Of a stretch of DNA of 64,000 nt, positions 1-20,030 are shown piece after piece. This DNA is from an uncultured Hungatella sp. (lineage in GTDB: Bacteria; Bacillota; Clostridia; Lachnospirales; Lachnospiraceae): the NCBI GenBank assembly GCA_947089145.1, contig CAMUJH010000019.1, forward strand, positions 1 to 64,000. Direction: 5' to 3'. The notes under the pieces are model-generated. The model searched no databases and was not told where the DNA came from. It was given only the letters and a program-made list of their open reading frames with translations. The first letter of the stretch is position 1. Every line of letters starts with the position of its first letter. A program made the translations under genes and the position numbers.

Positions 1-1
1 T

Positions 2-73
2 GAAGGCCACCTTGACCTCTCCAGGAAACTGGATGATGCTTTAAAAGTAGAAAATAGGCTCTCGGAATATTGA
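2..73 (+). CDS. possible C-terminal end of a gene starting left of the window
   Basis: From base 2 an open frame of 23 codons runs to a TGA at 71-73. The peptide is charged and helix-like (it ends RLSEY). The gene body, if real, lies outside the window, so nothing can be said about function. An inverted repeat shortly downstream would fit a gene end. The assignment is weak because so short an open stretch can occur by chance. Confidence 0.3.
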   Translation, partial: EGHLDLSRKLDDALKVENRLSEY

Positions 74-78
74 GCCTG

Positions 79-100
79 CCGACTAAAATTCACCAGTCGG
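79..100. terminator. 6-bp hairpin after the partial left-edge frame
   Basis: CCGACT (79-84) and AGTCGG (95-100) are perfect inverted repeats around a 10-nt A+T-rich loop. There is no run of T after the stem, so it is a poor intrinsic terminator. It may mark the end of the upstream gene or the edge of the insertion sequence. Confidence 0.25.
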
Positions 101-220
101 ATGAACCTTAAAAAGTAAATATTATCCAGAACGGATATGACAAGTAATAAATGATGAAAAAATGACGAACTTTAATAGACCATGCGTCAAATATGGTTTA
201 TAATGGTATTGCTTATGTAA

Positions 221-1735
221 TTAAGCGGCTTGCTCAAAGAGATCTTTTAGCGGGGATGACTTTGACAAAGCCCAGGCATCAAGATGTTGACACATCATGA
301 TGGCAAACAGGCGGCAGTACCACATCATGGATGAACGGTATCTGCCGTCTTCTAATTTATAGTCTATTTTCTCACGTTTGTTACAACGTTCAGCGGATGT
401 TCTTGCACGATATTCCAGCTTCCACTGGGCACTATCACGAGGAGGATCGTTAAACAGTCTTGGATTGTCTTTTAAAACAAGATGAACATTCCTGCCATAC
501 TTAGCAGAGGAGCATGGATCTTCGCAAGTGCATTGCGGGGTACCGCCTTTGCAGGTGATTTTGGGGCAGCGATATTTGATTCGCCCCTTTTTCGGCTCAA
601 CAGCAGCCTGCTTCATAAGGAACCCTTTTGGGCATAATGGAACCCCGTCTTTGTTTATGGTAATGTCATCCTTATAAACAGGAGGACGTCCACATTTCCA
701 GTTCAGGTCGATAAAAGGGGTTATGCCATTGGCATTACAGTAAACGTAATAAGGCATGGCATCGTGTGCTGAGTCGAGAAGGAGTTTTTTAACGACAGCA
801 TCAGGAAGCATCTGTTTCATGGAAAACCAGTTATATAGGAATCCATGGGAGTCATGTCGTGAGGCAGGACTTAAAAAAGGAAAAACCGGAAGATCATTTA
901 CAGAGTCAGCTGCGGTCAGCATGTATAAGTCATATCCGAAGTAATAACGGTTACGGTGGGAATCCCAGCCGATGTCACAGTCGGGCTGCTGATAGATGCG
1001 GTTACAGCTGCAATTGTGAATCCCTTTTTCAAGACAGTTGCAGGTTCGTTTTTTCCGTTCCTGTGCGGCGGTATAAACAGGCGTGCCATCTCCGGCTAAA
1101 ACAAGTTCTTTAAGAGATAACAGGTTTTGGCTGTCAGAAGTCTGAAGAAAAAAAGTATGGAAGATTTCCCAAAGTCTTAGACAGGGAGCCATGTCAGAAG
1201 GTGGGTTTTGCTCAAACTTGCGAAATAAATCTTCGACGGTTACTTTTTCAACAGGAGCAGCCTTCTCCTCTTTGCCCTTTGGCTTTTGAGGCTTTTCTTT
1301 AGGCGGATGAACAGCATTGGAAAGATTTTTATGATCGGACAGCCAAAGACGATTGTGGAAGTCATAGAAGGTGCCGACACCAGGAGTATCACCTACCGTA
1401 AAGCCAGAAATAATGGCATGAAGATTGTTCTCTTTCAGATCAGAAGCAAATTTTGTATACGAGGTTATTTTAAATTCAACGGAAACAAGGATTGCTCGGA
1501 GCATATCGGAAGGGAGCCTTGGTTGAGGGCCAAAGACGGAATATCGGTCCTGCATTAGAAGATCAATACCAGATAAATCCAAAGCCCAGAATTTTTCGAG
1601 GATCTGCCAGGCTGATGAAGAGAGAGAAGCTGCCGCATCAGGATAATATTTAAGAAGTTGAGTCAGAACACGGTTCTGATAGGCGCAATGACCGCCAACG
1701 TTAACAGGTTTCAAGGAAACACACCTCCAAATCAA
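221..1735 (-). CDS. DDE transposase (IS1182/IS4-like)
   Basis: A 504-aa, apparently full-length transposase of the DDE/RNase H-fold type. The N-terminal third (about residues 30-140) looks like the DNA-binding domain of IS1182-type enzymes. Candidate catalytic acidic residues are the D in LAGDGTP, the D in LLLDSAHDA and the E in TSAERCNKRE followed by a K/R-rich stretch. A Cys-rich insertion (motifs CNCLEKGIHNCSC and CKGGTPQCTC) lies between the last two and may bind zinc. On the minus strand, a GGAGGTG ribosome site lies just before the start codon. I could not find matching terminal inverted repeats by eye, so the element ends are not fixed. The N- and C-termini look intact, so it may still be active. 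Family placement is from the motif layout; the DDE class is firmer than the IS family. Confidence 0.8.
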   Translation of the reverse strand: MIWRCVSLKPVNVGGHCAYQNRVLTQLLKYYPDAAASLSSSAWQILEKFWALDLSGIDLLMQDRYSVFGPQPRLPSDMLRAILVSVEFKITSYTKFASDLKENNLHAIISGFTVGDTPGVGTFYDFHNRLWLSDHKNLSNAVHPPKEKPQKPKGKEEKAAPVEKVTVEDLFRKFEQNPPSDMAPCLRLWEIFHTFFLQTSDSQNLLSLKELVLAGDGTPVYTAAQERKKRTCNCLEKGIHNCSCNRIYQQPDCDIGWDSHRNRYYFGYDLYMLTAADSVNDLPVFPFLSPASRHDSHGFLYNWFSMKQMLPDAVVKKLLLDSAHDAMPYYVYCNANGITPFIDLNWKCGRPPVYKDDITINKDGVPLCPKGFLMKQAAVEPKKGRIKYRCPKITCKGGTPQCTCEDPCSSAKYGRNVHLVLKDNPRLFNDPPRDSAQWKLEYRARTSAERCNKREKIDYKLEDGRYRSSMMWYCRLFAIMMCQHLDAWALSKSSPLKDLFEQAA

Positions 1736-1781
1736 AAAGTCTGTCCGGCGCTGCCGGAACGATATGCCTTGTTAATCAAGA

Positions 1782-1803
1782 GGCGCGAAGCGCCGCATTT
1801 TTT
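1782..1803 (+). terminator. GC hairpin with T-tract upstream of the transposase gene
   Basis: GGCGC (1782-1786), loop GAA, GCGCC (1790-1794), then GCA and six T. This has the shape of a short intrinsic terminator read on the plus strand. It may shield the transposase gene region from outside transcription, as insertion-sequence ends often do, or may itself be part of the element end. Confidence 0.4.
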
Positions 1804-2282
1804 GAGACATTTGTCAAGTACTTTTTGAAAAAAGGTGGAGAAAAAATAAAAAAGGAATCTCAGAAGCCAGATAAATAAAGGCTTAGAGATTCCGAGAGTC
1901 TATGAAAATGAAAAGGAGATGCTGCTTATCAAAGTGAACCGCATGGATACTGAATTAAGGAGTGTAAAAGCCAAGATTGAAGGAATTGCGTAAAAGGAAG
2001 AAAGCTGGGAAAAGCAGAGCTTACTGTTCGCTCGTTACCTTGACCGAAAGAAAACGATGGTAGGACGTGAGAGAGTTTTTCCGTAAATTAAGATCTTCTA
2101 TGATAATCTATGATAAGCTGATGTAAAGTTAAATTTAATTTATAATCCTTAAATGACAAGGTCGCAGAAATTCCCAATAAGCGCATTTTAAGGTAGCGTA
2201 AAATAGTTTGTGTCTTTGGAAAAATAGCTCCTTTTTGGTAAGAATGCAGATATGGCAATTCTTATTGAAAGGGGGTATTTTT
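1804..2282. other. gene-poor gap between insertion-sequence remnants
   Basis: About 480 bp with no convincing gene. A 25-codon open stretch on the plus strand (about 1919-1993, containing MLLIKVNRMD) ends at TAA and resembles nothing I can name. The rest is A+T-rich and broken by stops in all frames, consistent with decayed mobile-element sequence. Confidence 0.4.
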
Positions 2283-2510
2283 ATGGCTGTAGCTAAGGAG
2301 CAGATTTGACAGATTATGTTAGAAAACAACATTTCCGGCGTTGCAGATGTCTATTCCCTTATCAAAGAAAGCTTTAAAGACATCCTGCAGGAACTCATGG
2401 AGGCGAACCCGCCAAAAAGGCTGTCTCCGTCTCTATGGTGCAGGCTGCCCGTTTCAAAGAATCCGTTCTGTTACATGTCGGATTATATCGGACAGGATGG
2501 CATAAAATGA
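2283..2510 (+). pseudogene. IS256-family (mutator) transposase N-terminal remnant
   Basis: ATG at 2283 opens a frame reading MAVAKEQI, then an in-frame TGA (2307-2309), then MLENNISGVADVYSLIKE and FKDILQELMEA. This is the typical N-terminus of IS256-family transposases, with the LLxxN...DL...LKE..IQELLEAE pattern. After LMEA the family sequence is lost and the frame ends at 2510. Only the first 40 or so residues of a roughly 400-residue protein remain, and an internal stop is present, so it is a dead fragment. The inverted-repeat element begins about 45 bp downstream. Confidence 0.7.
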
Positions 2511-2553
2511 CATTTGGATTCCAGGCGGCAGAAAAGCTTGGTATGATACAAAA

Positions 2554-2584
2554 AGTGTCGCTTAACTGGTTATTAAGCGACACT
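2554..2584 (+). repeat. left crossover-type inverted repeat of the putative promoter switch
   Basis: Two perfectly complementary 12-bp arms, AGTGTCGCTTAA (2554-2565) and TTAAGCGACACT (2573-2584), flank a 7-bp asymmetric core, CTGGTTA (2566-2572). Two inverted recombinase-binding arms around a 6-8 bp core is the standard layout of a tyrosine-recombinase crossover site. The same unit recurs in inverted orientation at 2743-2768. Confidence 0.8.
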
Positions 2585-2609
2585 TACGAAAAATTTTATA
2601 ACGGTTCTG

Positions 2610-2638
2610 ATTATATCATTAATTCTAACTAGTGTCAA
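2610..2638 (-). promoter_or_regulatory. perfect consensus promoter pointing left (OFF orientation)
   Basis: On the minus strand TTGACA (plus coordinates 2633-2638), a 17-bp spacer and TATAAT (2610-2615) give a perfect sigma-A promoter. It now reads toward the insertion-sequence debris, where no gene on that strand starts nearby. After inversion of 2557-2768 the hexamers would fall on the plus strand at about 2687-2692 and 2710-2715, some 80 bp ahead of loaP. A plus-strand TATAAT exists at 2684-2689 in the current orientation, but no recognisable -35 hexamer precedes it. Confidence 0.8.
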
Positions 2639-2742
2639 CAGGAATAATTTGCAGTATCATTTCTAAAATTCCAAATTAATTCTTATAATTATGCTATTTT
2701 TTGCTAATATCTGATTATTTTCCTCCTACGGTTTTCTGCAGA

Positions 2743-2768
2743 TGTCGCTTAATAACCAGTTTAGCGAC
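2743..2768 (-). repeat. right crossover-type inverted repeat of the putative promoter switch
   Basis: TGTCGCTTAA (2743-2752), core TAACCAG (2753-2759) and TTTAGCGAC (2760-2768). The core is the exact reverse complement of the left core CTGGTTA, so the two sites face each other, as required for inversion. One base in the outer arm differs from the left copy. Confidence 0.8.
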
Positions 2769-2794
2769 TGATCTACAATTGATTTTTAAGGGAG

Positions 2795-3289
2795 ATGAGA
2801 AAAATTTGGTATCTGCTGAAATGTCCCGAGGGTAATGAGACGGAATGTATGGCTCAATGTACTGAAATTATGGCTTCAAGAGAACTGGAAGAGGTTCTGT
2901 GTTTTCAGTATCAGCGTATGATGCGTTACGGCAGAACGTGGCATCTGGAAAGACGGATGGCTCTGCCGGGGTATGTGTTCGTAGCCGGGAGTGCTGTGCC
3001 GGGGAAGAGGAAATGGCAGGGGAGTTTAAAAAGAAAAGATACATTCTCCGTGACCCCTTGTGAGACTCCGTATCTGAAGGAACTGTGTGACAATGGTTCC
3101 TTAATCGGAATATCCAGAGGTATCATCCGAAATGGGGATGCGATTGTAACCAACGGCCCTCTGAAAGGCCGGGAGTCGCTGATACGGAGAATTGACCGGC
3201 ATAAAAGGACGGCGGAAATTGAAATTCCTTTTGCCGGCGGCAAAAGGCAGATAACGGTTGGACTGGAGATTTATGAGAAAGAAAAATAG
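2795..3289 (+). CDS. loaP: LoaP-like NusG-family transcription antiterminator
   Basis: A 164-aa NusG paralogue: an N-terminal NGN-type domain (starting IWYLLKC; family pattern WY-L) and a C-terminal KOW motif (about residues 110-160, RNGDAIVTNGPLKGRES, then IDRHKRTAEIEI). LoaP proteins bind RNA polymerase and a leader hairpin and allow transcription through long polysaccharide or natural-product operons in Firmicutes; first position in a capsule cluster is their usual place. The start is uncertain. AAGGGAG (2788-2794) touches the ATG at 2795 with no spacing, so either translation is weak or a near-cognate codon just inside (for example ATT at 2804) is used. The invertible promoter segment lies immediately upstream, making this gene the probable master switch of the cluster. 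Confidence 0.85.
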   Translation: MRKIWYLLKCPEGNETECMAQCTEIMASRELEEVLCFQYQRMMRYGRTWHLERRMALPGYVFVAGSAVPGKRKWQGSLKRKDTFSVTPCETPYLKELCDNGSLIGISRGIIRNGDAIVTNGPLKGRESLIRRIDRHKRTAEIEIPFAGGKRQITVGLEIYEKEK

Positions 3290-3400
3290 GTAATATAGAG
3301 AGAAGAGAAACAGATAAAAGAAACAGTCAAGATTGAGAATAGAATTGCTGAAGCATTGGCACAGGAATTAGGTTCTCATGGATATATTGGCAGAGCAGGG

Positions 3401-3424
3401 CCGCAGTGGAATTTATAGCTGCGG
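3401..3424 (+). promoter_or_regulatory. small hairpin in the leader between loaP and the first biosynthetic gene
   Basis: CCGCAG (3401-3406) and CTGCGG (3419-3424) form a perfect 6-bp stem around a 12-nt loop in the 420-bp stretch between loaP and the aminotransferase gene. LoaP acts through an RNA hairpin in operon leaders, so this is a candidate target, but I base it only on position and shape. The rest of 3290-3527 holds no recognised gene; one 41-codon stretch without a start codon (about 3296-3418) is unassigned. Confidence 0.3.
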
Positions 3425-3527
3425 AATGGCGAAGCCTACCCAAAATGGGGACACGCGAGTACATGGGTATGTGAGATTACCGATTACCATGGGAACGGAA
3501 TGACAGGGCGGAGAGACAGATTACTTT

Positions 3528-3710
3528 TTGGCATTAGGTGAAAAAGAGAAGCGGCTTGTTGAAAGTATTGGGAATCGGGAACATAAAACCGCTTTGTCCA
3601 AAGTCGTGGTGGGGGAAGTGATGGTGGAGGTGGAATTTATGGGAAGGAAGATGGAACTGACAATGGGAATTGAGATGATTGTGAAGAAAAGACTGAAAAA
3701 GAGGAAATGA
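3528..3710 (+). pseudogene. remnant of a second NusG/LoaP-like C-terminal (KOW) half
   Basis: A 60-codon frame whose second half (GEVMVEVEFMGRKMELTMGIEMIVKK) lines up with the end of the intact LoaP upstream (RTAEIEIPFAGGKRQITVGLEIYEK). It contains only the KOW-domain end; no NGN domain precedes it in frame. It is best read as a decayed second copy of the antiterminator. Its stop overlaps the start region of the aminotransferase gene, so residual translation through it could help couple expression. Confidence 0.5.
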
Positions 3711-3712
3711 TA

Positions 3713-5020
3713 ATGGATTTTATGAATGACCTAAGATTCAAGGGCATTGAAAAATTTGACCGTAGAGTATGGTTGTCTTCCCCAACCATGCACGGCGATG
3801 AACAGCGATGGGTCGACGAGGCAATTCAGACAAATTGGGTATCCACTGTTGGCGCCAATATCAGTGTGGTAGAAAAAGAAATAGCGGGGTACATAGGCGT
3901 TAAATACGCTATAGCGCTGTCTGCCGGTACTGCCGCGCTGCACCTGGCTACCAAGCTCGCCGGGGAAAAGCTGTATGGCCAAGCCAGGCCGAATGCCGGT
4001 ACTCTGGCTGGAAAAAAGGTCTTCTGCAGCGATATCACATTTGATGCGTCCATAAATCCTATCGCATATGAAGATGGCGAGGCGGTCTTTATAGACACGG
4101 AACCTGATACATGGAACATGTGCCCGGAAGCGCTTGAGAAGGCCTTTGAGATTTATCCGGAAACAAAACTTATCGTTGTCGCCCACCTCTATGGCACGCC
4201 GGGGAAAATGGAGGAGATTAGGCGGATTGCTGATAAGCATGGCGCTCTTATCGTGGAGGATGCGGCGGAATCTTTGGGAGCCAAGTACAAGCTTCACGCT
4301 CAATGGGTAGAAACAGGGGCGTTGGGAGACTATAACTGCATTTCCTTTAATGGCAACAAAATAATCACCGGGAGTTGCGGAGGGATGTTCCTGACAGATT
4401 CCAAAGAGGATGCCGACAAGGTCAGGAAGTGGTCCACGCAGAGCCGTGAAGCCGCTCCGTGGTATCAGCATGAGGAAATCGGCTACAACTACCGCATGAG
4501 CAACGTGATAGCGGGGGTAATACGAGGACAGATACCGCATTTGGATGAGCATGTCAGGCAGAAGAAGGCGATCTACGAGCGGTATAGGGAAGGGCTGAGA
4601 GATCTGCCGGTTTCCATGAATCCATACGATGAGAAGGCCAGCATTCCAAATTTCTGGTTAAGCTGCTGCATTATCAGTCCCGCCGCTATGGCGCCCCATG
4701 TCAGAGGGGAACAGGACGAACTGTGGACCAGCAGCCCTGGCAAGAGCAGTCCTGGCGAGATATTGGCTGCATTAGCGGCATTCGGCGCGGAAGGAAGGCC
4801 GATATGGAAGCCTATGCACATGCAGCCTATCTACAGAGCCCATGGGTTTATTACGGCTGAGGGTAATGGCAGGGCAAAATCAGATGCTTACATGGCTGGC
4901 GGAGGCGTCGATGTGGGAGCTGACATCTTCAGAAGGGGGATGTGCCTGCCCAGCGATAACAAGATGACGGCAGAGCAGCAGGAAAGAGTGATTGATATTA
5001 TTCACAGGTGCTTTGAATAG
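3713..5020 (+). CDS. DegT/DnrJ/EryC1/StrS-family PLP sugar aminotransferase
   Basis: A 435-aa enzyme that transaminates a UDP-linked keto-sugar to an amino-sugar (PglE/PseC-type role). The N-terminal WLSSPTMHGDEQRWV resembles the substrate loop of this family. VEDAAESLGA (about residue 180) supplies the PLP-pyridine aspartate, and SFNGNKIITGSCGGM carries the Schiff-base lysine at about residue 216. The family is usually 370-400 aa; the extra length comes from a short insert near residue 90 (ARPNAGTLAGKK) and one near 340. ATG 3713 is preferred over ATG 3707 because GAGG at 3701-3704 is then 8 nt away. First biosynthetic gene of the cluster; with the PglC-like transferase downstream it suggests a diacetamido- or amino-sugar as the first residue of the repeat unit. 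Confidence 0.9.
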   Translation: MDFMNDLRFKGIEKFDRRVWLSSPTMHGDEQRWVDEAIQTNWVSTVGANISVVEKEIAGYIGVKYAIALSAGTAALHLATKLAGEKLYGQARPNAGTLAGKKVFCSDITFDASINPIAYEDGEAVFIDTEPDTWNMCPEALEKAFEIYPETKLIVVAHLYGTPGKMEEIRRIADKHGALIVEDAAESLGAKYKLHAQWVETGALGDYNCISFNGNKIITGSCGGMFLTDSKEDADKVRKWSTQSREAAPWYQHEEIGYNYRMSNVIAGVIRGQIPHLDEHVRQKKAIYERYREGLRDLPVSMNPYDEKASIPNFWLSCCIISPAAMAPHVRGEQDELWTSSPGKSSPGEILAALAAFGAEGRPIWKPMHMQPIYRAHGFITAEGNGRAKSDAYMAGGGVDVGADIFRRGMCLPSDNKMTAEQQERVIDIIHRCFE

Positions 5021-5106
5021 GAAGGGAGAAGGCTGCCGGTGCGTGATGTTTCGGGATATTGCCGCCGGGATTGCTTTAAGAATGAATTGTCAGGAGAATT
5101 ACTTAT

Positions 5107-5763
5107 ATGCGGCATAAACCTTATGGACCATATGAGCGGTTTATTAAACGGCCGTTAGACTGTTTATTAGCTGCGGCTGCATTTATAGTTTTGTCGCCAA
5201 TAATGCTTATTACGGCCATGCTTGTCAGAGTGAAACTTGGCTCTCCCGTATTGTTCAGCCAGGAAAGGCCGGGAATGATCGATCCAAAGACAGGCAAAGA
5301 GAGGATATTTAAACTACATAAGTTCCGCACGATGACGGACGCGAGGGATGAAAATGGGGAGCTTCTTCCAGATGGGCTCCGTCTCACGTCCTTTGGTAAA
5401 ATTCTCCGCTCTACTTCCCTGGATGAATTGCCGGAGCTGTTAAATATCATCAAAGGCGATATGGCCGTAGTGGGCCCAAGGCCGCTGCTTGTTAAGTATT
5501 TGGAACGATATACGGCAATGCAGCGGAGACGTCAGGAGGTCAGGCCGGGGCTTACGGGCCTGGCGATGTCCACGGTAAGAAACTCAGCCGGCTGGGATAA
5601 GAAGTTTGAATTGGATGTTGAGTATGTTGACAAGGTTTCCTTTTTGATGGATGTAAAGATAATTTTGCGGACGATCCGCATCGTGCTGAGGCGGGAAGGG
5701 ATCAATGAAGCGGGGGAAGCCACGAATAGTGAGTTTATGGGCACATTGGAGGATAAAAAGTGA
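5107..5763 (+). CDS. initiating polyprenyl-phosphate sugar phosphotransferase (PglC-like)
   Basis: A 218-aa small monotopic phosphoglycosyl transferase. One N-terminal hydrophobic segment (about residues 18-40) is followed by the family signatures KFRTM, TSLDELPELLNIIKGDM (catalytic Asp-Glu dyad), VGPRPLL and FELDVEYVDKVS. It transfers a sugar-1-phosphate from a UDP-sugar to undecaprenyl phosphate at the inner face of the membrane and so starts the repeat unit. Its short form, lacking the multi-helix N-terminus of WcaJ/WbaP, is typical of PglC enzymes that use bacillosamine-like sugars; this agrees with the aminotransferase upstream but the substrate is an inference. The stop overlaps the next gene's GTG start (GTGA). 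Confidence 0.9.
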   Translation: MRHKPYGPYERFIKRPLDCLLAAAAFIVLSPIMLITAMLVRVKLGSPVLFSQERPGMIDPKTGKERIFKLHKFRTMTDARDENGELLPDGLRLTSFGKILRSTSLDELPELLNIIKGDMAVVGPRPLLVKYLERYTAMQRRRQEVRPGLTGLAMSTVRNSAGWDKKFELDVEYVDKVSFLMDVKIILRTIRIVLRREGINEAGEATNSEFMGTLEDKK

Positions 5764-6659
5764 AGTCGGTATTAATTGGCTCTGTTGGATCGAGTAAGGA
5801 AATGTTACAGGCAATGATTGATGTCGGGTTTCCTATTACTTGTGTTTTCTCTCTGGATGAAGAGGCTTCGGCAAATGTATCAGGATATCAGCCGATTCAT
5901 GAGCTGGCTGAGAAACACGGAATCCAATATAAGAAATTCAGAAGGATCAATGAGCCTGGGAATGTAGAGCTCATCAGGAGCATTGCGCCTGAATACATCT
6001 TTGTGATAGGGCTCTCGCAGCTGGTAAGAAAGGAAATTATGGATGCGGCGAAAATTGGCTTGGTTGGCTTCCATCCGACCGATCTTCCAAAGATGCGGGG
6101 ACGCGCCGCGAACGTGTGGCAGATCCTTCTTGGAGTGCATGATGCAAAGGTATCTTTGTTCTTCATAGACGAGGGCATTGATTCGGGGGACATCCTCGGT
6201 CAGGAGCCTTATGTAATCGAGGATACGGATTATGCCGAGGATGTCGGCAGAAAGATAGATGAAGCTGTCTCAAGGCTTTCCCGCAGGGTGCTGCGGCAGA
6301 TTATGGATGGGACAATAGAACGTCAAAAGCAGAATGAGGAGGACGCCACGTATCTGCTTCGGCGTGTTCCGGAAGACGGACTTATTGATTGGGACCGGCC
6401 GATTAAAGAAATACATACGTTGATAAGGGCAGTCTCAAGGCCTTTCCCAGGAGCGTTTGGGATGTACGACGGAAAGCATCCGGTAATCATATGGCGCGCC
6501 GACGTGCTTGAAAATAAGAAGTACATAGGTATGAACGGACAGATCGCTGAGGCCGCTGATGATCACATGGATGTCGTGTGCAGGAACGGGCTGCTGAGAG
6601 TGACCGATTATGAAAATATTGACGGCGTAAAGATATTTGCCGGACATAAGTTGAGGTGA
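5760..6659 (+). CDS. formyltransferase-fold enzyme (probable sugar N-formyltransferase)
   Basis: A 299-aa member of the family of methionyl-tRNA formyltransferase and ArnA/VioF sugar formyltransferases. The conserved loop reads GFHPTDLPKMRGRAA (about residues 100-115) and the Asp loop DEGIDSGDIL (about 140). The catalytic His and Asp are present, but the Asn normally two residues before the His is Gly, as in a sub-branch of these proteins. The C-terminal part (about residues 205-299) resembles the small beta-barrel that follows the catalytic domain. It starts at GTG 5760 behind GGAGG and overlaps the previous stop by 4 nt, so it is translationally coupled. Probable role: N-formylation of the amino-sugar made by the aminotransferase. 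It is not the housekeeping Fmt, given its context. Confidence 0.75.
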   Translation: MKSVLIGSVGSSKEMLQAMIDVGFPITCVFSLDEEASANVSGYQPIHELAEKHGIQYKKFRRINEPGNVELIRSIAPEYIFVIGLSQLVRKEIMDAAKIGLVGFHPTDLPKMRGRAANVWQILLGVHDAKVSLFFIDEGIDSGDILGQEPYVIEDTDYAEDVGRKIDEAVSRLSRRVLRQIMDGTIERQKQNEEDATYLLRRVPEDGLIDWDRPIKEIHTLIRAVSRPFPGAFGMYDGKHPVIIWRADVLENKKYIGMNGQIAEAADDHMDVVCRNGLLRVTDYENIDGVKIFAGHKLR

Positions 6660-6665
6660 CAGCCA

Positions 6666-7316
6666 ATGCGCGTAGTAATAATAGCCCCGCATAATGATGA
6701 CGAAATACTTGGCGCGGGCGGGACGATGGCAAAATTGGCCGGGATAGGCCATGAGGTAATTGTTTGTGAAGTCACTGCGGGCGATATAGATGACGAAATG
6801 GTTCAGCTTCAGAAAGAGGAGGCGATTGCGTCCCATGAGCTGATGGGGGTAAAAACACATTTCATGGATCTTCCCGTAGTCGGGCTTCGCGAACTGGCTA
6901 CGAAAGAGCTAAACGGCGCTTTTCAAAAGCACCTCCTTGAGCTGGGCCCGGATATTGTTTTTATTCCCCATAAAGGCGATATGCATATTGATCACAGGAT
7001 GACTGCCGAAGCCGCAATGGTTGCCCTCCGTCCTGTGACGTTCCCGAATCTCAAAGCAGTCTATGCGTACGAGACGCTGTCGGAGACAGGCTGGAATACG
7101 CCGTCAGTGGATAATGCGTTTATACCAAATATGTTTGTTGATATTACGGGACAGATTGATATAAAGTTAGAGGCGATGAAGCGCCATGCTTCTCAACTCT
7201 GCGATTGGCCTCATCCCAGATCGCTGGAAACTATAAAGGCTTTGGCTATGCATAGAGGCAATACCGTGTGCAGGAAGTATGCCGAGGCATTTATGGTGAT
7301 TCGGGAAATCAGGTAA
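6666..7316 (+). CDS. PIG-L/LmbE-family N-deacetylase
   Basis: A 216-aa zinc-dependent deacetylase. The N-terminal motif PHNDDEILGAGGT (family: PHxDDE) and HKGDMHIDHR (about residue 105) give the metal ligands and catalytic Asp. Such enzymes remove N-acetyl groups from GlcNAc-type sugars, often on lipid-linked or nucleotide-linked intermediates. It lies 6 bp after the formyltransferase gene; the pair could swap an acetyl for a formyl group on the same nitrogen. That pairing is an inference from gene order. Confidence 0.85.
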   Translation: MRVVIIAPHNDDEILGAGGTMAKLAGIGHEVIVCEVTAGDIDDEMVQLQKEEAIASHELMGVKTHFMDLPVVGLRELATKELNGAFQKHLLELGPDIVFIPHKGDMHIDHRMTAEAAMVALRPVTFPNLKAVYAYETLSETGWNTPSVDNAFIPNMFVDITGQIDIKLEAMKRHASQLCDWPHPRSLETIKALAMHRGNTVCRKYAEAFMVIREIR

Positions 7317-7333
7317 GGCGGAAAGGCTGAGAT

Positions 7334-8584
7334 ATGGATAGTAACCCGCTGATAAGCGTCATAGTACCCATCTATATGATTGATCGGTATGCAGGGCGGT
7401 GTGTTGAAAGCATATTGAATCAAACGTATAAAAACCTTGAAATTATACTTGTCGATGACGGCAGCAAGGACAGATGTTCTGAGTTATGCGACCTATATAA
7501 GAGAAAAGATGAACGTATCAAGGTTATCCACAAGCCGAATGGAGGATTAGTATCAGCCCGGAAAGCAGGCCTGCAGCAGTCAAACGGGGAGTATGTCTCC
7601 TATGTTGACGGTGACGACTGGATAGGGACGGGGTTTATTGAAGGGCTATACACGGCGGCAAAAACCTCCAATGCCGATATGGTTTGTGCAGGCTTTACGC
7701 GTGACCTGTTTTCTAAATCAAAACCATTCATCAATCATATTCCCCCTGGCATCTACGAAGGCGGCAGGCTAAGGGACCTATGGAGATCCATGATTTCCCA
7801 TGGCTCTTACTATCGGCCGGGGATAAGCACCTATGTTTGGAACAAGCTGTTTCGAAGGGAAACTTTGCTGGAATCCCAGTTATGTGTGGATAACAGGATT
7901 TCAATCGGCGAGGATGGAGCCGTCACATATCCGGTCCTTCTGAAGTGTTCAAAAGTCGCGGTCATAGATAATGTGGCCTACCACTATCGGCAGCGTGAAG
8001 ATTCCATGTTGAAACAGAGCATGGGTTACAGCCTGGAAGCTCAGAAACTAAAGTACCTGTATGATTATATGATGCGATGGGCTGAGAAGGCCGCCCCCGG
8101 GCTGGATATCCGCAGGCAGGTGCAGGATTATGTCCTCTCCATAGCCATCATGCGTTCCGGCGGCAGATTGCCGCAAGGCGGCTATAGCGCTTTCAATCAT
8201 GCCTGCTGCGGGAAAAATGTTGTAGTATACAGTGCCGGCACATTTGGCCAGCAATTAATGAACCGGCTTAGGGAAACGGGGCATTGTAACGTAGTCGCTT
8301 GGATTGATGACGATTACTGGGAATACAGGCGCTGCTGCCTGGATGTCGATCCCGTGGAGGACATTACAGGGCTTGGTTTTGACTACATCCTGACCGCCAC
8401 GGTGGATGGCATGGCGGCTGAGAGCGTTAAAAGAAGGCTGATGGATCTGGGCGTAAACCAGAGCAAGATACTCACGGTAATGGTGCCTAAGAATAAAGAA
8501 GAGGCATTAGGCTGCTTCCTTGACGCGGACGCCATAAAAGCCGAAGAGATGAAAAGAAAAAGAGGGATCGCTTCTCATGCTTGA
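7334..8584 (+). CDS. GT2 glycosyltransferase with C-terminal Rossmann-like domain
   Basis: A 416-aa protein. Residues 1-230 form a GT-A family 2 domain (ISVIVPIYMIDRYAGRC, ILVDDGSKD, YVDGDDW with the metal-binding DxD, GEDG). Residues 290-390 contain a separate nucleotide-binding-like unit (KNVVVYSAGTFGQQL, then VVAWIDDDY), a pattern found in some Firmicute GT2 proteins and resembling PglD-type N-terminal modules. It adds one sugar to the growing repeat unit on the cytoplasmic side. The gene overlaps the next by 8 bp. Confidence 0.88.
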   Translation: MDSNPLISVIVPIYMIDRYAGRCVESILNQTYKNLEIILVDDGSKDRCSELCDLYKRKDERIKVIHKPNGGLVSARKAGLQQSNGEYVSYVDGDDWIGTGFIEGLYTAAKTSNADMVCAGFTRDLFSKSKPFINHIPPGIYEGGRLRDLWRSMISHGSYYRPGISTYVWNKLFRRETLLESQLCVDNRISIGEDGAVTYPVLLKCSKVAVIDNVAYHYRQREDSMLKQSMGYSLEAQKLKYLYDYMMRWAEKAAPGLDIRRQVQDYVLSIAIMRSGGRLPQGGYSAFNHACCGKNVVVYSAGTFGQQLMNRLRETGHCNVVAWIDDDYWEYRRCCLDVDPVEDITGLGFDYILTATVDGMAAESVKRRLMDLGVNQSKILTVMVPKNKEEALGCFLDADAIKAEEMKRKRGIASHA

Positions 8585-9332
8585 TTTAAAAACGAGAGTA
8601 TTGACCGGCACGGGGCCTGCATTATTTAGCACGGGACAGGCCGGATACATCATCAAAAGCAGCTCCGGCCAGCTGCTTGCCATTGACCTGTATTTTTCAA
8701 ATTGTGTAGAACGGCTGGAGGGGCATGCAGGGTTCAAACGGTTATTGCCACGGATACTGGAAGCGTCTGACCTGAATTTTGATGTTATTATTTGCACCCA
8801 TCCCCATCTTGACCACTTTGACATGGATGCCGTGCCTGAGATGATGGGCCATGGGAGCAGGCTTTTTTGCTCCGCTGGCTGTGAAAAACTTATTCATCAG
8901 CTTCGGATGGGGTACTACGGTAACTTTATCACATATGTGAAACCTGGCGATCATGAAGCCGCGGGAGACTTTGATATCACATTCGTCAACTGCGATCATG
9001 GGGCAGGCGCCCCCGATGCAGTGGGCGTGGTCATCAAAGTAGATGGCAAGACCATCTATGAGGTGGGGGACAGCTGCTTAAGGCTTGACAGAGTGTCTGA
9101 GATACCGGCCCCTCTCGACGTCCTCATCTCTCCGGTTAACGGCATGTACGGGAACATGAACAGCGAGGATGCGGTAAAGCTGGCGGAGGCGCTGAAGCCG
9201 AAGATCACGATCCCCTGCCATTACGGGATGTTCGCATCACATGGCGGCGACCTGAAGCAGTTCTATGAATTAACAGCCAAAAGGCAGATACCGGCCCTGA
9301 TTATGCAGCAGGGCGAGGAATTTAGACTGTGA
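8577..9332 (+). CDS. UlaG-like metallo-beta-lactamase-fold hydrolase
   Basis: A 251-aa metal hydrolase with THPHLDHFD (HxHxDH, about residues 73-81), an Asp-containing VGDSC loop and a final CHYGMF histidine, the pattern of the UlaG/L-ascorbate-6-phosphate lactonase branch. The family acts on sugar-phosphate lactones, cyclic phosphates and phosphodiesters. It sits between a glycosyltransferase and an ATP-grasp ligase, so it probably processes a sugar or activated substituent of the polymer, but the substrate is not inferable. The start inside the previous gene is supported by GAGGG 8 nt or so upstream. Confidence 0.75.
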   Translation: MLDLKTRVLTGTGPALFSTGQAGYIIKSSSGQLLAIDLYFSNCVERLEGHAGFKRLLPRILEASDLNFDVIICTHPHLDHFDMDAVPEMMGHGSRLFCSAGCEKLIHQLRMGYYGNFITYVKPGDHEAAGDFDITFVNCDHGAGAPDAVGVVIKVDGKTIYEVGDSCLRLDRVSEIPAPLDVLISPVNGMYGNMNSEDAVKLAEALKPKITIPCHYGMFASHGGDLKQFYELTAKRQIPALIMQQGEEFRL

Positions 9333-9374
9333 AAATTACAAGACGCTCAAAAGAGGCGCAGAAGGGAAAATAAA

Positions 9375-10667
9375 ATGAAGAGCGAATTTGAAGGCAGGAA
9401 ACTATTAATCTTGGGCGGCAATCCTGAAACCATCCCGTTGGTTGAGATTGCGAACAGCTGGGGAATTAAGACTATCGTCGCTTCCGCCCGTCCTGCTGAC
9501 CCTGCAAAGGCTTATGCCTGGAAGGCATATGACTATGAGGGGCTGGATGTGGGAAAAGTTATTAAGATTGCCACGGAAGAACAGGTTGACGGCGTCCTTG
9601 TCGGCGTCGCTGACATCCTTGTGCCTATGTACTGCAAAGTCTGCGAAGCCCTTGACCTTCCCTGCTATGCTACGCAGCAAATCGTTGATGTCTTTGCATT
9701 CAAGGACGTCTTCAAGGCCACTTGTGAGCGTTACGGCGTCCATGGCATCCCGGAGTACTATTTGGACTCTGATATGAGACGTGAAGACCTGGATAAAATC
9801 GTTTACCCGGTCATGGTCAAGCCCGTGGATAACGGCGGCGGCGTTGGGATGACTGTGGCGAATAATGAGGAAGAGCTGAGAAAGGGCGTAAAAGCCGCGC
9901 TTGAGAACAGCCATTCCAAGCGGTTCATCGTTGAGAGATATATGGAGTGTGATGATATGGGCATGTATTATACCTTTAAGGATGGATGCTGCTCCGCTTC
10001 CTGCATCTATGACCGGTACACCACGGATGAGCAGCCTGGAGTTTCACGGGTTTGCCTTGGCGGCACCTATCCGTCAAAGCATCTTGATGAATATTTCCAG
10101 CGGATGCATCCGAATGCTCTCAGACTGTTCAGGGAAATCGGAATTAAGAACGGTGTTCTGATGCTCTCTGGCTTCTATGAGAATGGTGAGTTCTATGTAT
10201 ATGACACAGGCTTCCGTCTCCAGGGAGAGGCTCCCCATCTGCTCATGAAGGCTGTCCATGGATTCGATCAACGGGAGATGCTGATCCGCTTTGCTTTGAC
10301 CGGCTCTGAGGGTGATATTGATCTAAGAACAGCCGACGATACAAGACTAAGAGGAAAATGGGCAGCTACACTTTGGTTTCTATTGAAAGAAGGAAAGATT
10401 GGCAAGATAGTAGGCCTGGATGGTCTCGATAAAGATGAACGAGTTGTGGTCAATGTCCAGCGCCTGCATGAGGGTGATACAGTTCAGCCTGACTGGATTG
10501 GAAACGAGAAACAGGTGTTGACCCGCATGTATCTCGTCTGCAACAGCAAGATAGAGTTGGCAGATACCCTCAAGTACTATATGAATACAGTGAAGGTTCT
10601 GGACGATGCTGGTAACAGCATGCTCCTTAAAGGCTTTGATGTGGATAAGGCTCTGGAGTTGAGATAA
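9375..10667 (+). CDS. ATP-grasp carboxylate-amine ligase
   Basis: A 430-aa ATP-grasp enzyme. It has an N-terminal Rossmann-like region (LLILGGNPETIPLVEIANS), a central ATP-binding region (YPVMVKPVDNGGGVGMT, about residue 145; FIVERYME) and a catalytic/metal region (YVYDTGFRLQGE). Such ligases join a carboxylate, activated as acyl phosphate, to an amine. In capsule clusters they commonly attach an amino acid to a uronic acid or to an amino-sugar. A 110-bp gap with no clear promoter separates it from the SDR gene downstream. Confidence 0.82.
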   Translation: MKSEFEGRKLLILGGNPETIPLVEIANSWGIKTIVASARPADPAKAYAWKAYDYEGLDVGKVIKIATEEQVDGVLVGVADILVPMYCKVCEALDLPCYATQQIVDVFAFKDVFKATCERYGVHGIPEYYLDSDMRREDLDKIVYPVMVKPVDNGGGVGMTVANNEEELRKGVKAALENSHSKRFIVERYMECDDMGMYYTFKDGCCSASCIYDRYTTDEQPGVSRVCLGGTYPSKHLDEYFQRMHPNALRLFREIGIKNGVLMLSGFYENGEFYVYDTGFRLQGEAPHLLMKAVHGFDQREMLIRFALTGSEGDIDLRTADDTRLRGKWAATLWFLLKEGKIGKIVGLDGLDKDERVVVNVQRLHEGDTVQPDWIGNEKQVLTRMYLVCNSKIELADTLKYYMNTVKVLDDAGNSMLLKGFDVDKALELR

Positions 10668-10780
10668 CCTTCCTGCTTCTCAATTTATCCAACAGTCAGA
10701 TCTTAACATAATAGAGTGTATGGAGTTGTGATTGGGTGGAAGGCAGACACAAGGGAGAATGAGAAAGGAAGGTATTACAG

Positions 10781-11551
10781 ATGGAGTGCGAAAGGCTGAA
10801 AGATAAAGTAATTGTTATATCAGGCGGGACTAAAGGCGTAGGTCGTGCTTTCGCCGAGGTTGCCGGACATGAAGGCGCTAAGATTGTTATCGGCGGCCGT
10901 GATGAAAAGGCTGGGAAAGAAGCTGTCAGGAATATTAAGACTTTCGGATCTGATGGACTGTTTGTTCACACGGATTTACTCAAAGTTGAGGACTGCAAAC
11001 ATCTGTTTGACGCATGCTATGAGAAGTTCGGAAGAATTGACGGTTTCTTCAACTATGCTGGTGTGACACCGGTAAGTCCGCTGGACACGTGCGATGAGGA
11101 AACCTTTGACTGGGTTACAAATGTGAATTATAAAGCAACGTTTTTCTGCTGTCAGGCTGCTGTGAATTACATGAGAAGGAATGGCGGCGGAAGTATTGTA
11201 CTTACCGGATCAGCACATGGCTGGGGTGGTCAGAAGGACAGAGCTGCATATGCCATGACGAAAGGCGTACTCAGGATTCTTAATGAGCACATTGCCCATC
11301 AGTACGCTGCCGAGCAGATCCGGTGTAACTATCTGACACTGGGATGGACTCCCACTGAGGGCGAGGTAAGTCTTAGAATTAGCCAAGGCGAGAGCGAGGC
11401 AGAATTGAGGAAACGAGCTGCCGACATCCTCCCGATGGGACGCATGTGCGAGCGCAATGACTATATGGAAGCGCTAATATACCTTTTATCGGATGCAAGC
11501 GCGATGATGACTGGATCAATATTCAGGCTTACAGCCGGAGAGTATATTTAA
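10781..11551 (+). CDS. short-chain dehydrogenase/reductase
   Basis: A 256-aa classical SDR: glycine-rich NAD(P) motif SGGTKGVG near the N-terminus, NYAG (family NNAG) at about residue 90, catalytic Ser in VLTGSAHG, and YAMTK (YxxxK) near residue 163. It oxidises or reduces a hydroxyl/keto group of a small molecule or sugar precursor. A good GGAAGG site lies upstream. The substrate cannot be told from sequence; membership of the cluster points to a precursor of the polymer substituent. Confidence 0.85.
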   Translation: MECERLKDKVIVISGGTKGVGRAFAEVAGHEGAKIVIGGRDEKAGKEAVRNIKTFGSDGLFVHTDLLKVEDCKHLFDACYEKFGRIDGFFNYAGVTPVSPLDTCDEETFDWVTNVNYKATFFCCQAAVNYMRRNGGGSIVLTGSAHGWGGQKDRAAYAMTKGVLRILNEHIAHQYAAEQIRCNYLTLGWTPTEGEVSLRISQGESEAELRKRAADILPMGRMCERNDYMEALIYLLSDASAMMTGSIFRLTAGEYI

Positions 11552-11632
11552 AAATGCATACAAATGGAAACGAATTTATGCACTATAGCAGGGGGATAGG
11601 ATGCAGACTAAATTTAAATGTGAGGTAATGTC

Positions 11633-12940
11633 ATGTACTTTCTGCTTTTAACTTGTGTGCTGCTTGCTGCGCTTGTTAATTATAAATTATTCGATAAGGA
11701 TATTATGGAGCCCGCTGTCATACTCCCGCTTGTTTTTTTAATAGGTATTGTTTTCGGCTTCTATAATTATAGGTACTGGAGATTAAGAGAATACGGTTTT
11801 CAGGCAACATCATGTCTTTTGTTGGGGATAACAGCATTTGGCATAGGCTCATTTATAGCAAAACTAATTCGTATTATTCCGTACAAGAGAAATAATAAGG
11901 TTAAAAGTTATGGAAGAATAGATCTTTTTCATGGCATAGTAACTTTTTCGGTGATTATATCCATAGGAACATTGTTTCTGTTTTTGGCATACTATTTAAG
12001 AAACGTCAATGCAAATACAATAGCAGGTATGCTGATTGAGTACAAAGCATTGAGAAGAAGTTCAAAAATTAGTATGCCGATACATATCAATTTCATGATA
12101 AAAACTACTGCGTATTTTTCCATTTTCAGCCTGTTTTACTTATTGAATAATTTAATCACAGGAACAGCAAAATTAAGAGATTACTTTGCATTAATTAATG
12201 TTGGAGTATACCTTATAATATGTTTTCTTGCCAATAAAAGAGGAGATATGCTGGAACTTATTATGGCGGGTTTTTCAGCTTGGTGCATTTTGTATAGCAA
12301 GATCAGGCATAGAGAATATAAAATGTCCGGGGAGATAATCAAGAAAGGGGCAAAGGTTGTTGCTATTACATTAGCTGGATTTGCTGCTATAGCAGCGTTC
12401 AGAAATGGAAATTCTAAAGATTTTAAATTTGTATCGTACCTTTGTAATTACGTCAGCGGGGCTTTAGCAGCAATAGATGTTTATTTTAAACAAGGAGGAC
12501 CGCTTAACAAGTATGTTGGACAAGAGACATTTCCCACTTTCTACAACAATCTTTATGCAATATTTCATATAGGTGAGCATATAGAACGCACATTAGAGTT
12601 TAGATCATATAATGGCTACGATGTTGTAAATATATATACGACTTTCCGGAGGCTGTTTCAGGATTTCGGTTGGGGCGGCGTTGGGCTTCTCTCTGCATTT
12701 CAAGGGTTTGTCAGTACAAAAGTATACAGATATGTAAAATTCAAGGAAAGCAACAGAAGCATCGATTTTGCACTTTCGTTTTATTGCTACTATTTTGTTA
12801 CTGTGATCTATGTTGCTATGGAAGATGTATTCTTTAGTTCAGATATTTCCTTGTCTGGAATTGCAAAATCAATTCTTTTATTCTTGACATTTCACGTCTT
12901 CTTTTACAAGTCACGACAAAGTGTGGAAGTAATATTATGA
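11633..12940 (+). CDS. wzy: Wzy-type O-antigen/capsule repeat-unit polymerase
   Basis: A 435-aa integral membrane protein with about ten hydrophobic segments and a large extracytoplasmic loop in the second half (about residues 265-350, charged and Tyr/Phe-rich), the usual topology of Wzy polymerases. Near the end of the loop, RRLFQDFGWGGVGLLSAF resembles the G-x-(W/Y)-G motif of this group. It would join lipid-linked repeat units outside the membrane. Sequence identity in this family is always low, so the call rests on topology and its place beside wzx. From here the DNA becomes clearly more A+T-rich than the genes upstream. Confidence 0.75.
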   Translation: MYFLLLTCVLLAALVNYKLFDKDIMEPAVILPLVFLIGIVFGFYNYRYWRLREYGFQATSCLLLGITAFGIGSFIAKLIRIIPYKRNNKVKSYGRIDLFHGIVTFSVIISIGTLFLFLAYYLRNVNANTIAGMLIEYKALRRSSKISMPIHINFMIKTTAYFSIFSLFYLLNNLITGTAKLRDYFALINVGVYLIICFLANKRGDMLELIMAGFSAWCILYSKIRHREYKMSGEIIKKGAKVVAITLAGFAAIAAFRNGNSKDFKFVSYLCNYVSGALAAIDVYFKQGGPLNKYVGQETFPTFYNNLYAIFHIGEHIERTLEFRSYNGYDVVNIYTTFRRLFQDFGWGGVGLLSAFQGFVSTKVYRYVKFKESNRSIDFALSFYCYYFVTVIYVAMEDVFFSSDISLSGIAKSILLFLTFHVFFYKSRQSVEVIL

Positions 12941-12962
12941 TTATGAAAGTAGGTTCTATAGA

Positions 12963-13965
12963 ATGAAGGTAAAATTTCGCGAACAGAATTATGATTGTCT
13001 TAGAGTTATCTCAGCTTTCGCTGTTGTTCTCATGCATGTAAATTGGCAGTTTTTCAAGCAAAGTAATGGAGAGATTCATAGAGTGAGCGCAGTAGTTGAG
13101 AGTATTATTAATATTGTTACCCGCTTTTCTGTTCCATGTTTCTTTATGATGTCAGGGGCATTTATTCTAAACGGATACAAAAAATATGATAATGCTCTGG
13201 CTTTTTACAATCGGGCAGTTAAGAAAAAATTTTTGCCTTTTGGCTGTTTCTTGATTGCGTACGTTGTACTTGACTGCATTATGGATAAGAATATAAATAT
13301 GAGTAATATAATGGATGTATTAAGAGAAGATAAATATAATCTATGGTTCATGTATACGCTTCTATTTATATACTTCCTAGTTCCAATGCTTTCAATAATA
13401 AAAGAACATATTTCCGATAAGGCTTGGATAAGGGCCTCATGTATTGGAATGGCATGGGCAATTGTATCTCAAAGCTTTAGCAGGCATTATCTTGCTTATG
13501 ATATTGGCGTTACAGTGGCTTACATGTTTTATTTTATGCTTGGAAACGCCTTGTATAATCATCGAGATCTCTTTAAAAGTAAAAAGTTTATATTAGTGTT
13601 GGCAGGTTTTACAGCGACAGCAGCAGCTTTCTTTATAAGAAATAATGGATTTGATAGATACGTTTCAGATCCTTATATCAGCTTCTTTTCTCCGTCCATA
13701 GTAGTTTTATCTGTATGTGCTTATACATTCGCCGGGGGGTACAGGTTCGTTGTAAATGGGAAAGATTAGCAGATTATACCTTCTATGTCTATCTGTTGCA
13801 TACACCGGTATTTATTGTTTTGCTGAGGCTTATTAAAGTCGAGAATGAATTGTTGGAAATAGTATTGGTAACTTTTTTGACATTTTTTTAGCACTAATAA
13901 TTTCAGTCTTGATTGTAGCATTAAAAAATCGGATTAAAGAAAGAAGATTGAGGATATATCAATAA
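12963..13965 (+). pseudogene. acyltransferase-3 family membrane O-acyltransferase, split by two frameshifts
   Basis: The intact first part (268 codons, 12963-13769) has the N-terminal YDCLRVISAFAVVLMHV with the conserved His, FSVPCFFMMSGAF, and several membrane helices: the OatA/WecH-type acyltransferase-3 family. The frame stops early, but the missing C-terminus continues in another frame: ERLADYTFYVYLLHTPVF, with the family's YxxHxP signature. A further shift gives the last helix and a basic tail ending at TAA 13963-13965. The shifts fall at a run of six G (13734-13739) and a run of seven T (13883-13889); one extra base in each would restore a protein of about 334 aa. The product would O-acetylate a cluster sugar. 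Whether this is a pseudogene, slipped-strand phase variation or sequencing error cannot be told here. Confidence 0.75.
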
Positions 13966-13985
13966 AATGTTACGAGGTAATCCAT

Positions 13986-15407: not shown

Positions 15408-15411
15408 AGAG

Positions 15412-16365
15412 ATGAAAGTCACAGTATTGTTGAGTACATATAATGGAGAAAAGTTTCTTGCAGAACAACTGGATTCAATTCTTCAGCAAAAGGACGTGAA
15501 AGTACAGCTTGCAATTAGAGACGACGGTTCCAGTGACAAAACTATTGATATTCTCCGTGAATATGAAAAAAGAGAAAATATCATCGTTACGTTAGGGGAA
15601 CCTCTTGGAGTGGGCCGCAGCTTTATGAACATGCTATATAATGACGGTTCCGATGCAGATTTCTATGCATTTGCCGATCAGGATGATATATGGGATGAAG
15701 ATAAATTAATTTGCGGAGTCAGGGCAATAGAGAGTGCAGGGAACGGTCCCCGATTATATGTTTGTAATCAGCGTTGTGTTGACTGTGGAGGGAATTATAT
15801 AAGTGATAGATTTCCACCTGATTTTCCTGTACAGACGATGGCGAACACATTGTTTGTGAACCTATATGCCGGGTGTACTATGATATTTAACAGAGCGCTT
15901 AAAGATAAATTGGTCGATGAAAAGCGAAGACCGGATATCGAATTCTTTGATCATCGAATACATGATGCTTGGACTGCGTGTGTGGCATCTGTCTTTAATC
16001 CTATAATGTATGACTCCCAATGTCATATGAGCTTCAGAAGGCACGGGAATAATGAAACTGATGCAGAGATCTTAAGAGGTGTAAAAGTTAAAAAAATTAT
16101 TAAGATAAAGTTACAAATTCGGAAAATAAAAAGATTGTTTGGAAGAAAAAGAAGAAGAAACAGTGTTGAATTAACAGCTAAGAATCTATTAATTGGATAC
16201 TCTGATATGATGGACGATAACTCTAAAACAATGCTTTTGACGGTTTCTGAATACAGAGCGTCTCTGCAAAACAAATTGGCACTTGTAAGGAATGGATATC
16301 TTGAGAATGGAGCTCCTGAGAAAAGAGCAGATCTGATTGTAAAGATAATATTTAACAGATTATAA
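15412..16365 (+). CDS. GT2 glycosyltransferase (rhamnosyltransferase-like)
   Basis: A 317-aa GT-A family 2 enzyme: VTVLLSTYNGEKFLAEQLDSIL, IRDDGSSD, FADQDDIWDEDKL (metal-binding DQDD) and a His/Asp-rich acceptor region FFDHRIHDAW. This pattern is typical of RgpB/RfbF-type rhamnosyltransferases, though the sugar is not certain. The C-terminal 90 residues are strongly basic (KIIKIKLQIRKIKRLFGRKRRR), suggesting peripheral membrane contact. Confidence 0.87.
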   Translation: MKVTVLLSTYNGEKFLAEQLDSILQQKDVKVQLAIRDDGSSDKTIDILREYEKRENIIVTLGEPLGVGRSFMNMLYNDGSDADFYAFADQDDIWDEDKLICGVRAIESAGNGPRLYVCNQRCVDCGGNYISDRFPPDFPVQTMANTLFVNLYAGCTMIFNRALKDKLVDEKRRPDIEFFDHRIHDAWTACVASVFNPIMYDSQCHMSFRRHGNNETDAEILRGVKVKKIIKIKLQIRKIKRLFGRKRRRNSVELTAKNLLIGYSDMMDDNSKTMLLTVSEYRASLQNKLALVRNGYLENGAPEKRADLIVKIIFNRL

Positions 16366-16380
16366 ACGCAGGAGGAAGAT

Positions 16381-17526: not shown

Positions 17527-17569
17527 CATAGGACTTAGAAATGAGGCAAAGAGCCTTGGAAGGAGAAAT

Positions 17570-18628: not shown

Positions 18629-18663
18629 AGCGCCGGCATTATTGAACCGAAAGGAAGTCTGAT

Positions 18664-19995: not shown

Positions 19996-20030
19996 CAGTA
20001 ATAAAAATCTGATTTATTGTGGAGGTAAAT

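Follow-up and report, generated by a model that had tools for sequence, protein, structure and literature searches.

A putative invertible promoter upstream of a LoaP-type antiterminator gene in an uncultured Hungatella and its relatives

Introduction

How is a polysaccharide gene cluster transcribed when the perfect consensus promoter in front of it points the other way? The question is raised by a stretch of 64,000 nucleotides (the window) from an uncultured Hungatella sp. of the Lachnospiraceae, in which a promoter enclosed by inverted repeats lies directly upstream of a gene for a LoaP-type antiterminator. A preliminary description of the window proposed that this promoter is invertible and was caught in its OFF orientation, and that one inversion would act through the antiterminator on the whole operon. 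It now appears very probable that the element is an invertible-promoter phase switch, served by a site-specific recombinase acting in trans, that switches the antiterminator gene (LoaP-A), a structured RNA element and the gene cluster. The sites, cores, promoters and orientations, as well as the terminator asymmetry and the RNA covariation described below, are read from the sequence itself.

The source genome comprises 4.46 Mb in 127 contigs and is 87% complete; the window lies on contig C19. Its features are summarized in Table 1. The cluster that is the presumed target of the switch encodes an aminotransferase, a bacterial sugar transferase, glycosyltransferases, LicD, an acyltransferase and formyltransferases. 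The transposase remnant on the far side of the switch is presumably the start of an IS256-type transposase. A 1143-aa open reading frame precedes the one of 3349 aa and has no Pfam match either.

Table 1. Features of the window, with coordinates counted from its first nucleotide.
Feature	Position	Strand	Basis or remark
IS1182-like transposase gene	221-1735	-	45.3 bits (cut-off 270); just outside the switch
Transposase-start remnant	~2281-2400	+	just outside the switch
Outer (distal) site, extended palindrome with flanking A/T tracts	2553-2585		terminator-like under the OFF promoter
Recombination site 1	2557-2581	+	GTCGCTTAA-CTGGTTA-TTAAGCGAC; no mismatch to the strict arm-7-arm site
Promoter TTGACA-17-TATAAT	2610-2638 (read 2638->2610)	-	12/12, 17-bp spacer; directed away from loaP (OFF)
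Recombination site 2 (inner)	2744-2768	-	core TAACCAG; one arm mismatch to the strict site
LoaP-A, divergent LoaP/NusG paralog	2795-3289	+	NF033641, 104.9 bits (cut-off 125); tree; alternative start ATT at 2804-2806
Structured RNA, candidate LoaP target	3324-3458	+	131.7 bits to a model built from 25 copies, this one included; covariation; no Rfam family
LoaP-B remnant (decayed)	3504-3710	+	LoaP fragments of 36 aa at 3510 and 22 aa at 3615; three-frame reading; alignment by eye with intact copies
Polysaccharide (capsule-type) cluster, presumed target	3707-20783	+	gene content
3349-aa open reading frame	25315-35364	+	no Pfam match at E<=0.01

Sites and promoter in the window

The inverted repeats span 2557-2582 and 2743-2768 and are identical, as inverted copies, at 25 of 26 bp; the cores of the two sites are exact reverse complements, as first described. 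Assuming equal base frequencies, the expected number of 25-bp inverted pairs of this quality, spaced by no more than 300 bp, is about 1e-6 per 64 kb. The promoter between them likewise agrees with the preliminary description in sequence and direction, and it is the sole 12/12 match among nine promoter-like sites listed for positions 1-6000. When the segment 2557-2768 is inverted computationally, TATAAT falls at 2710-2715, about 80 bp ahead of the ATG at 2795, which is where the promoter had been expected to come to lie. The assembly itself holds no sign of a flip at the window copy. In many elements, a stretch resembling CTATAACGG-TTCCGATTATA, just downstream of the promoter start (window 2600-2640), looks conserved by eye; it is perhaps an operator or a start-region signal.

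Copies in the source genome

A search of the source genome for the arms with a free core, allowing up to 3 mismatches, returned 19 places, and the reversed pattern used as a control returned one. A place on C70 with 3 mismatches was taken as chance. The remaining 18, the two of the window among them, include the further copies that the preliminary description had proposed to look for; contigs C33 and C49 overlap, and the site they share enters this number twice. There are whole pairs on C2, C11, C19 (the window), C20, C23 and C63, pairs divided between contigs (C33/C49 and C63/C51), an orphan site at the end of C31, and on C71 an additional pair with a 6-bp core, recognized by eye. In total, the genome holds about ten elements. 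In each of the eight whose interior is assembled, the promoter points away from loaP, i.e., the element is OFF.

Nearly all elements of the source genome adjoin LoaP genes, and most differ from one another in their cores. LoaP-type genes give 21 matches in this genome; judged by sequence, one of them (C45) looks like NusG itself and two others are fragments. At the C2 element, LoaP is seen merely as a 41-aa piece at the contig end, and no LoaP gene is visible at the C31 orphan. An identical core is common to the elements of C20 and C63 and to those of C2 and C31, and among relatives to loci L088 and L095; because the same core occurs in several elements of one genome, exchange between distant loci is possible. 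With a longer arm pattern, the source genome was the sole match among 299 genomes of the family. A search of 61 chosen genomes for the arms gave a lone match in one of them (G262), which was taken as chance.

Elements in related genomes

A scan of GTDB species genomes for the exact arms yielded 45 loci, of which 35, in nine genomes, hold a pair. The site-bearing relatives include Hungatella-labelled MAGs, C. symbiosum ATCC 14940, C. transplantifaecale and bacterium 1XD21-70. Pairs were chosen by hand from the site lists, and core identity was no criterion. Together with the six whole pairs of the source genome, 34 of the relatives' pairs form a table of 40 elements from 10 genomes. The table leaves out the source-genome elements C33/C49, C63/C51, C31 and C71, and L090 (2470-2674), a matched pair with the same arms and neither promoter nor LoaP. 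It also leaves out ten single-site loci: L094, L096, L104 and L110, and six from other taxa (L085, L086, L089, L092, L103 and L119) whose lone sites were taken as chance.

In all 40 elements, the two 7-bp cores of a pair are exact reverse complements of each other. The elements thereby show the arm-core-arm form of tyrosine-recombinase inversion systems, in which a core of 6-8 bp is identical within the pair; C71 has a core of 6 bp. Between elements the cores vary, and 25 different ones occur. A promoter with a 17-bp spacer is present in every element (12/12 in 25, 11/12 in 15), so that the repeats enclose a promoter able to point outward. As to orientation, L108 and L120 are ON and the other 38 elements OFF. 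A LoaP gene is present at 30 of the 34 relatives' loci. The remaining four run out of sequence within about 180 bp of the inner site, either at a contig end (L100, L116, L123) or at the end of the stretch retrieved (L121), and their orientation was judged by which site keeps an intact outer arm.

The near-identity of the repeats could suggest inversion by general homologous recombination or by replication slippage between them. This is extremely improbable, since 25 bp is short for homologous recombination, and since the arms are kept across genomes while the cores vary between elements and match within pairs. Conserved arms with variable, pair-matched cores fit strand exchange within a short overlap.

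There may be a wider class of inverted pairs before LoaP, common in other genera. Around 20 LoaP-type genes of other genera, an inverted pair lies upstream of LoaP in five cases and elsewhere in two, and 13 loci have none. Pairs with other arms upstream of LoaP were seen at L230 and L232 (genome G114), L235 and L236 (G111), L246 (G013) and L253 (G296). Among six pairs examined, the five upstream ones and that of G296, three lack a promoter of at least 10/12.

Evidence for inversion

The two orientations can be compared directly between locus L120 of C. transplantifaecale (ON) and L102 of C. symbiosum (OFF). The flanks align forward, but L120 2413-2566, which lies between the sites and extends into them, matches L102 in the opposite direction. 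The agreement is interrupted: 1-2 kb beside the outer site are unaligned, and the cores differ. A flip separates the related loci of the two named species in this alignment. For the interior of L120, the reverse alignment is the better one with each of three OFF elements, and for that of L108 with each of nine. In the OFF-against-OFF controls, the forward alignment was better in five of five. Both orientations are thus found among relatives, in L108, L120 and the L120/L102 comparison.

Contig ends provide a second line of evidence. If both orientations occur in the reads, an assembly graph should branch at predictable nodes, which were placed for k=55, a value that was itself inferred. C33 and C49 have a 55-mer in common whose first base is exactly the point from which the OFF and ON forms are identical, C63 ends 55 bases past the base that distinguishes the outer from the inner site, and L095 starts 55 bases ahead of the point where OFF and ON diverge (all computed). 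The 55 bases with which L095 begins recur, as their reverse complement, at the start of L104 (by eye). For C31, the contig end has the offset found in C63; its node was placed by analogy because its inner site is unassembled. Six contig ends at four loci (C33/C49, C63, C31 and L095/L104), in two assemblies, therefore lie at predicted OFF/ON nodes, which suggests that the reads contained these copies, as distinct from the window copy, in mixed orientations. The prevalence of OFF (38 of 40, and eight of eight in the source genome) would also agree with many copies that flip rarely or never. The window's own copy would presumably flip as well. The proposal of an invertible promoter seen in its OFF state is thereby well supported, through paralogous and related copies, the two ON copies and the breakpoints at other copies.

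The terminator-like outer site

The outer palindrome has 13-bp arms that are 100% complementary with 7 nt between them, and it was listed as terminator-like on the minus strand. Two folds were compared for each element: that of the outer site when transcribed from the OFF promoter, and that of the inner site when transcribed from the ON promoter. In the window, the outer site gives -19.1 kcal/mol and the inner site in the ON form -9.3. The outer hairpin is the stronger in 39 of 40 elements (means -23.1 and -14.7 kcal/mol; the exception is L098), and the next 14 bases hold 7.7 T after the outer site against 4.3 after the inner one. A test value for this difference would overstate independence because the elements are related. 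With a stronger hairpin and more T at the outer site, inversion seems to toggle promoter direction and termination together.

It could be reasoned that the repeats are nothing but terminator hairpins, or a dispersed palindromic element, and never invert. The likeness of the outer site to a strong intrinsic terminator and the single orientation shared by most copies would agree with this. A terminator does not require what all 40 elements possess, a further copy in inverted orientation whose asymmetric core matches exactly, nor would it account for the ON copies, the reversed segment between related loci or the contig ends at OFF/ON nodes. Hairpins that never invert are therefore very improbable as an explanation, and an invertible promoter with a terminator-like outer site is preferred.

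Candidate recombinases

As stated in the preliminary description, the window encodes no intact recombinase: contig C19 has none of the 18 matches to PF00589 (17 over the cut-off) found when the source genome was searched for a tyrosine recombinase, as that description had advised. By coordinates, no match lies beside an intact element, and one, on C70, lies beside the 3-mismatch site. The best candidate is an adjacent pair of genes on C66 (300 aa and 274 aa, both with PF00589), preceded by a gene that resembles spoIIR. This choice comes from co-occurrence. The C66 type is found in nine of ten site-bearing genomes against 29 of 298 other genomes of the family, a contrast that shared ancestry may explain in part.

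It is quite possible, though somewhat less likely than not, that the flip is real and is made by another enzyme, such as the XerD-like protein of C16, the C105 type, an integrase or a serine recombinase. Relatives of the C16 type occur in all nine other site-bearing genomes and those of the C105 type in at least seven (from partial recombinase sets). A direct search at E 1e-40 found no protein of the C66 type in G300, a genome with many sites, and in G303 and G307 the type is single and unpaired; L158, once considered its relative in G300, was wrongly assigned. Against another enzyme stands the skewed occurrence of the C66 type given above. Xer proteins are near-universal and act at dif, and the arms, unlike Xer, are confined to a narrow set of genomes. 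The arms, at up to 2 mismatches, are absent from the 29 other genomes with the C66 type, and therefore would have to differ there. Among the genomes with other arms before LoaP, G114 and G111 have the C66 type and G013 and G296 lack it.

The LoaP pair

The window gene falls short of the NF033641 cut-off, which nine other genes of the source genome pass. In a tree of 76 LoaP sequences, 29 LoaP-A genes form one group (support 98/88), and their nearest kin are a LoaP of G013 and the genes in first position at L102 (C. symbiosum), at L120 (C. transplantifaecale) and in G296. LoaP-B genes stand elsewhere in the tree; the program warned of long branches in the LoaP-A region. Where relatives have a LoaP gene at the element, the A type adjoins it at 21 of 30 loci and another LoaP at nine (L098, L102, L107, L112, L113, L117, L120, L122 and L126). 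LoaP-B, the usual partner of LoaP-A, has decayed in the window; it is intact at several other loci of the source genome. The claim that the antiterminator acts on the whole operon must be qualified accordingly: it stays inferred, as the score of the window gene does not reach the LoaP cut-off of NCBIfam and its partner is a remnant.

The start codon of LoaP-A may be unusual. ATG or GTG occupies the start position in 36 of the 40 other LoaP genes listed. The LoaP-A genes, 29 of 29, show ATC (25) or ATT (4) at the same place, well spaced from the Shine-Dalgarno sequence, and 26 have an ATG or GTG three codons earlier that abuts the Shine-Dalgarno sequence (seven of the 29 entries were reassigned by hand from a second list). 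The positions concerned are 2795-2806 in the window, 748 in L067, 241 in L095 and 6720 in L109. In L095, L109 and C71, there is no ATG, GTG or TTG between the upstream in-frame stop and the ATC, which suggests initiation at AUC/AUU. Such a start is likely in these three genes and possible in the remaining LoaP-A genes.

A structured RNA element

A conserved non-coding stretch of about 120-135 nt lies 3' of LoaP-A. It was found in 25 copies, of which 22 sit between LoaP-A and an intact LoaP-B; the other three (window, C71, L093) follow LoaP-A, and no intact LoaP-B was found there. A strong match is missing from four of the 29 LoaP-A loci: two (L091 and L105) are truncated, L095 has a weak match (E 0.085) and L124 has none. 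In the four helices, 96.7% of cells are paired, compared with 36-46% after a shift of the pairing partners by 1-3 columns, and two-sided changes occur at 15 of 29 pairs, compared with 3-8 in the shifted controls. A known RNA family is excluded as far as Rfam 15 extends: no family covers the element in window 2500-3800 at E<=1, the lone match (E 0.5) being a miRNA model over the repeats, and four further loci have no match at E<=0.1.

Applied to 74 sources at E<=1, the covariance model gave 16 weaker matches, of which 12 lie within 250 nt upstream of a same-strand LoaP gene, one (L095) follows LoaP-A and three do neither; part of this proximity is expected because the sources were chosen around LoaP. 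At E<=0.001, six of 299 family genomes have matches, namely the source genome (8 copies), G040, G296, G112, G130 and G092. In G040, two copies each lie about 35 nt before LoaP, and G130 also has two copies. G296, which like G040 belongs to another genus, repeats the order of inverted pair, LoaP-A-like gene, RNA and LoaP-B, with unrelated arms. The match in G112 lies ahead of a sugar-transferase-like gene. At L251, L252, L254 and L257, matches have no LoaP just downstream, and L251 precedes a sugar-transferase-like gene.

The element is a candidate target of LoaP. UNCG hairpins, also considered for this role, were set aside after a strict search gave one match in 12 source-genome regions and one in seven relatives' loci.

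Proposed mechanism

The switch would work as follows. A site-specific recombinase supplied in trans would exchange strands within the matching 7-bp cores of the inverted sites and so flip the segment of about 210 bp between them. In the OFF state, as sequenced, the promoter would fire outward into the outer site, folded like an intrinsic terminator. In the ON state, it would face loaP with a weaker hairpin in its path, and LoaP-A, the RNA element and the capsule-type cluster would therefore be transcribed. LoaP and the RNA probably help RNA polymerase past terminators of the long cluster. Expression would in this way depend on orientation.

A broader picture, which we regard as rather doubtful, is a capsule-choice system of Lachnospiraceae. 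Core-coded invertible promoters and state-dependent terminators would drive a two-antiterminator module, in which the RNA would recruit LoaP-B, LoaP-A (with its AUC/AUU start) would restrain the LoaP of other loci, and one capsule would dominate per cell.

Relation to known systems

Multi-locus capsule promoter inversion is best known in Bacteroides. The capsule loci of Bacteroides fragilis have promoters inverted by the serine recombinase Mpi, UpxY antiterminators and UpxZ inhibitors. Both systems have many invertible promoters per genome, and in both the promoter precedes a NusG-paralog antiterminator at the head of a polysaccharide cluster; the present system may be filed, by analogy, as the Bacillota counterpart. 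It differs in phylum, in having LoaP rather than UpxY, in its arm-7-bp-core-arm sites with element-specific cores, and in its terminator-like outer site and structured RNA. Clostridioides difficile, also Gram-positive, similarly has several short invertible elements and a recombinase acting in trans, RecV.

In Eggerthella lenta, according to the available part of the report, megabase inversions at a 16-bp repeat move capsule clusters relative to loaP (PMC13174815). Common to both systems are DNA inversion tied to capsule clusters and loaP, the presence of inverted repeats and, in that part of the report, the absence of a recombinase gene next to the breakpoints (PMC13174815). The inversion proposed here, in contrast, is that of a short promoter segment before loaP. 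The LoaP of Bacillus velezensis is, in the part of its description available, a NusG paralog that antiterminates long operons via a leader RNA with a small UNCG hairpin, and inversion is not described there (PMC12691694). The RNA described here, by comparison, has four helices. No LoaP-linked invertible promoter was found in the open-licence literature, and one may already have been described elsewhere.

Capsule phase variation through the inversion of promoters at many loci would extend to Lachnospiraceae-type gut bacteria, with another antiterminator and another type of site. The parts that can be named are a structured RNA, a pair of genes that are candidates for the recombinase, and a LoaP pair, one member of which may start at an unusual codon. 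The ON state can go unseen in a single assembly. The elements probably let cells change their outer coat, which bears on surface variation toward phages and hosts.
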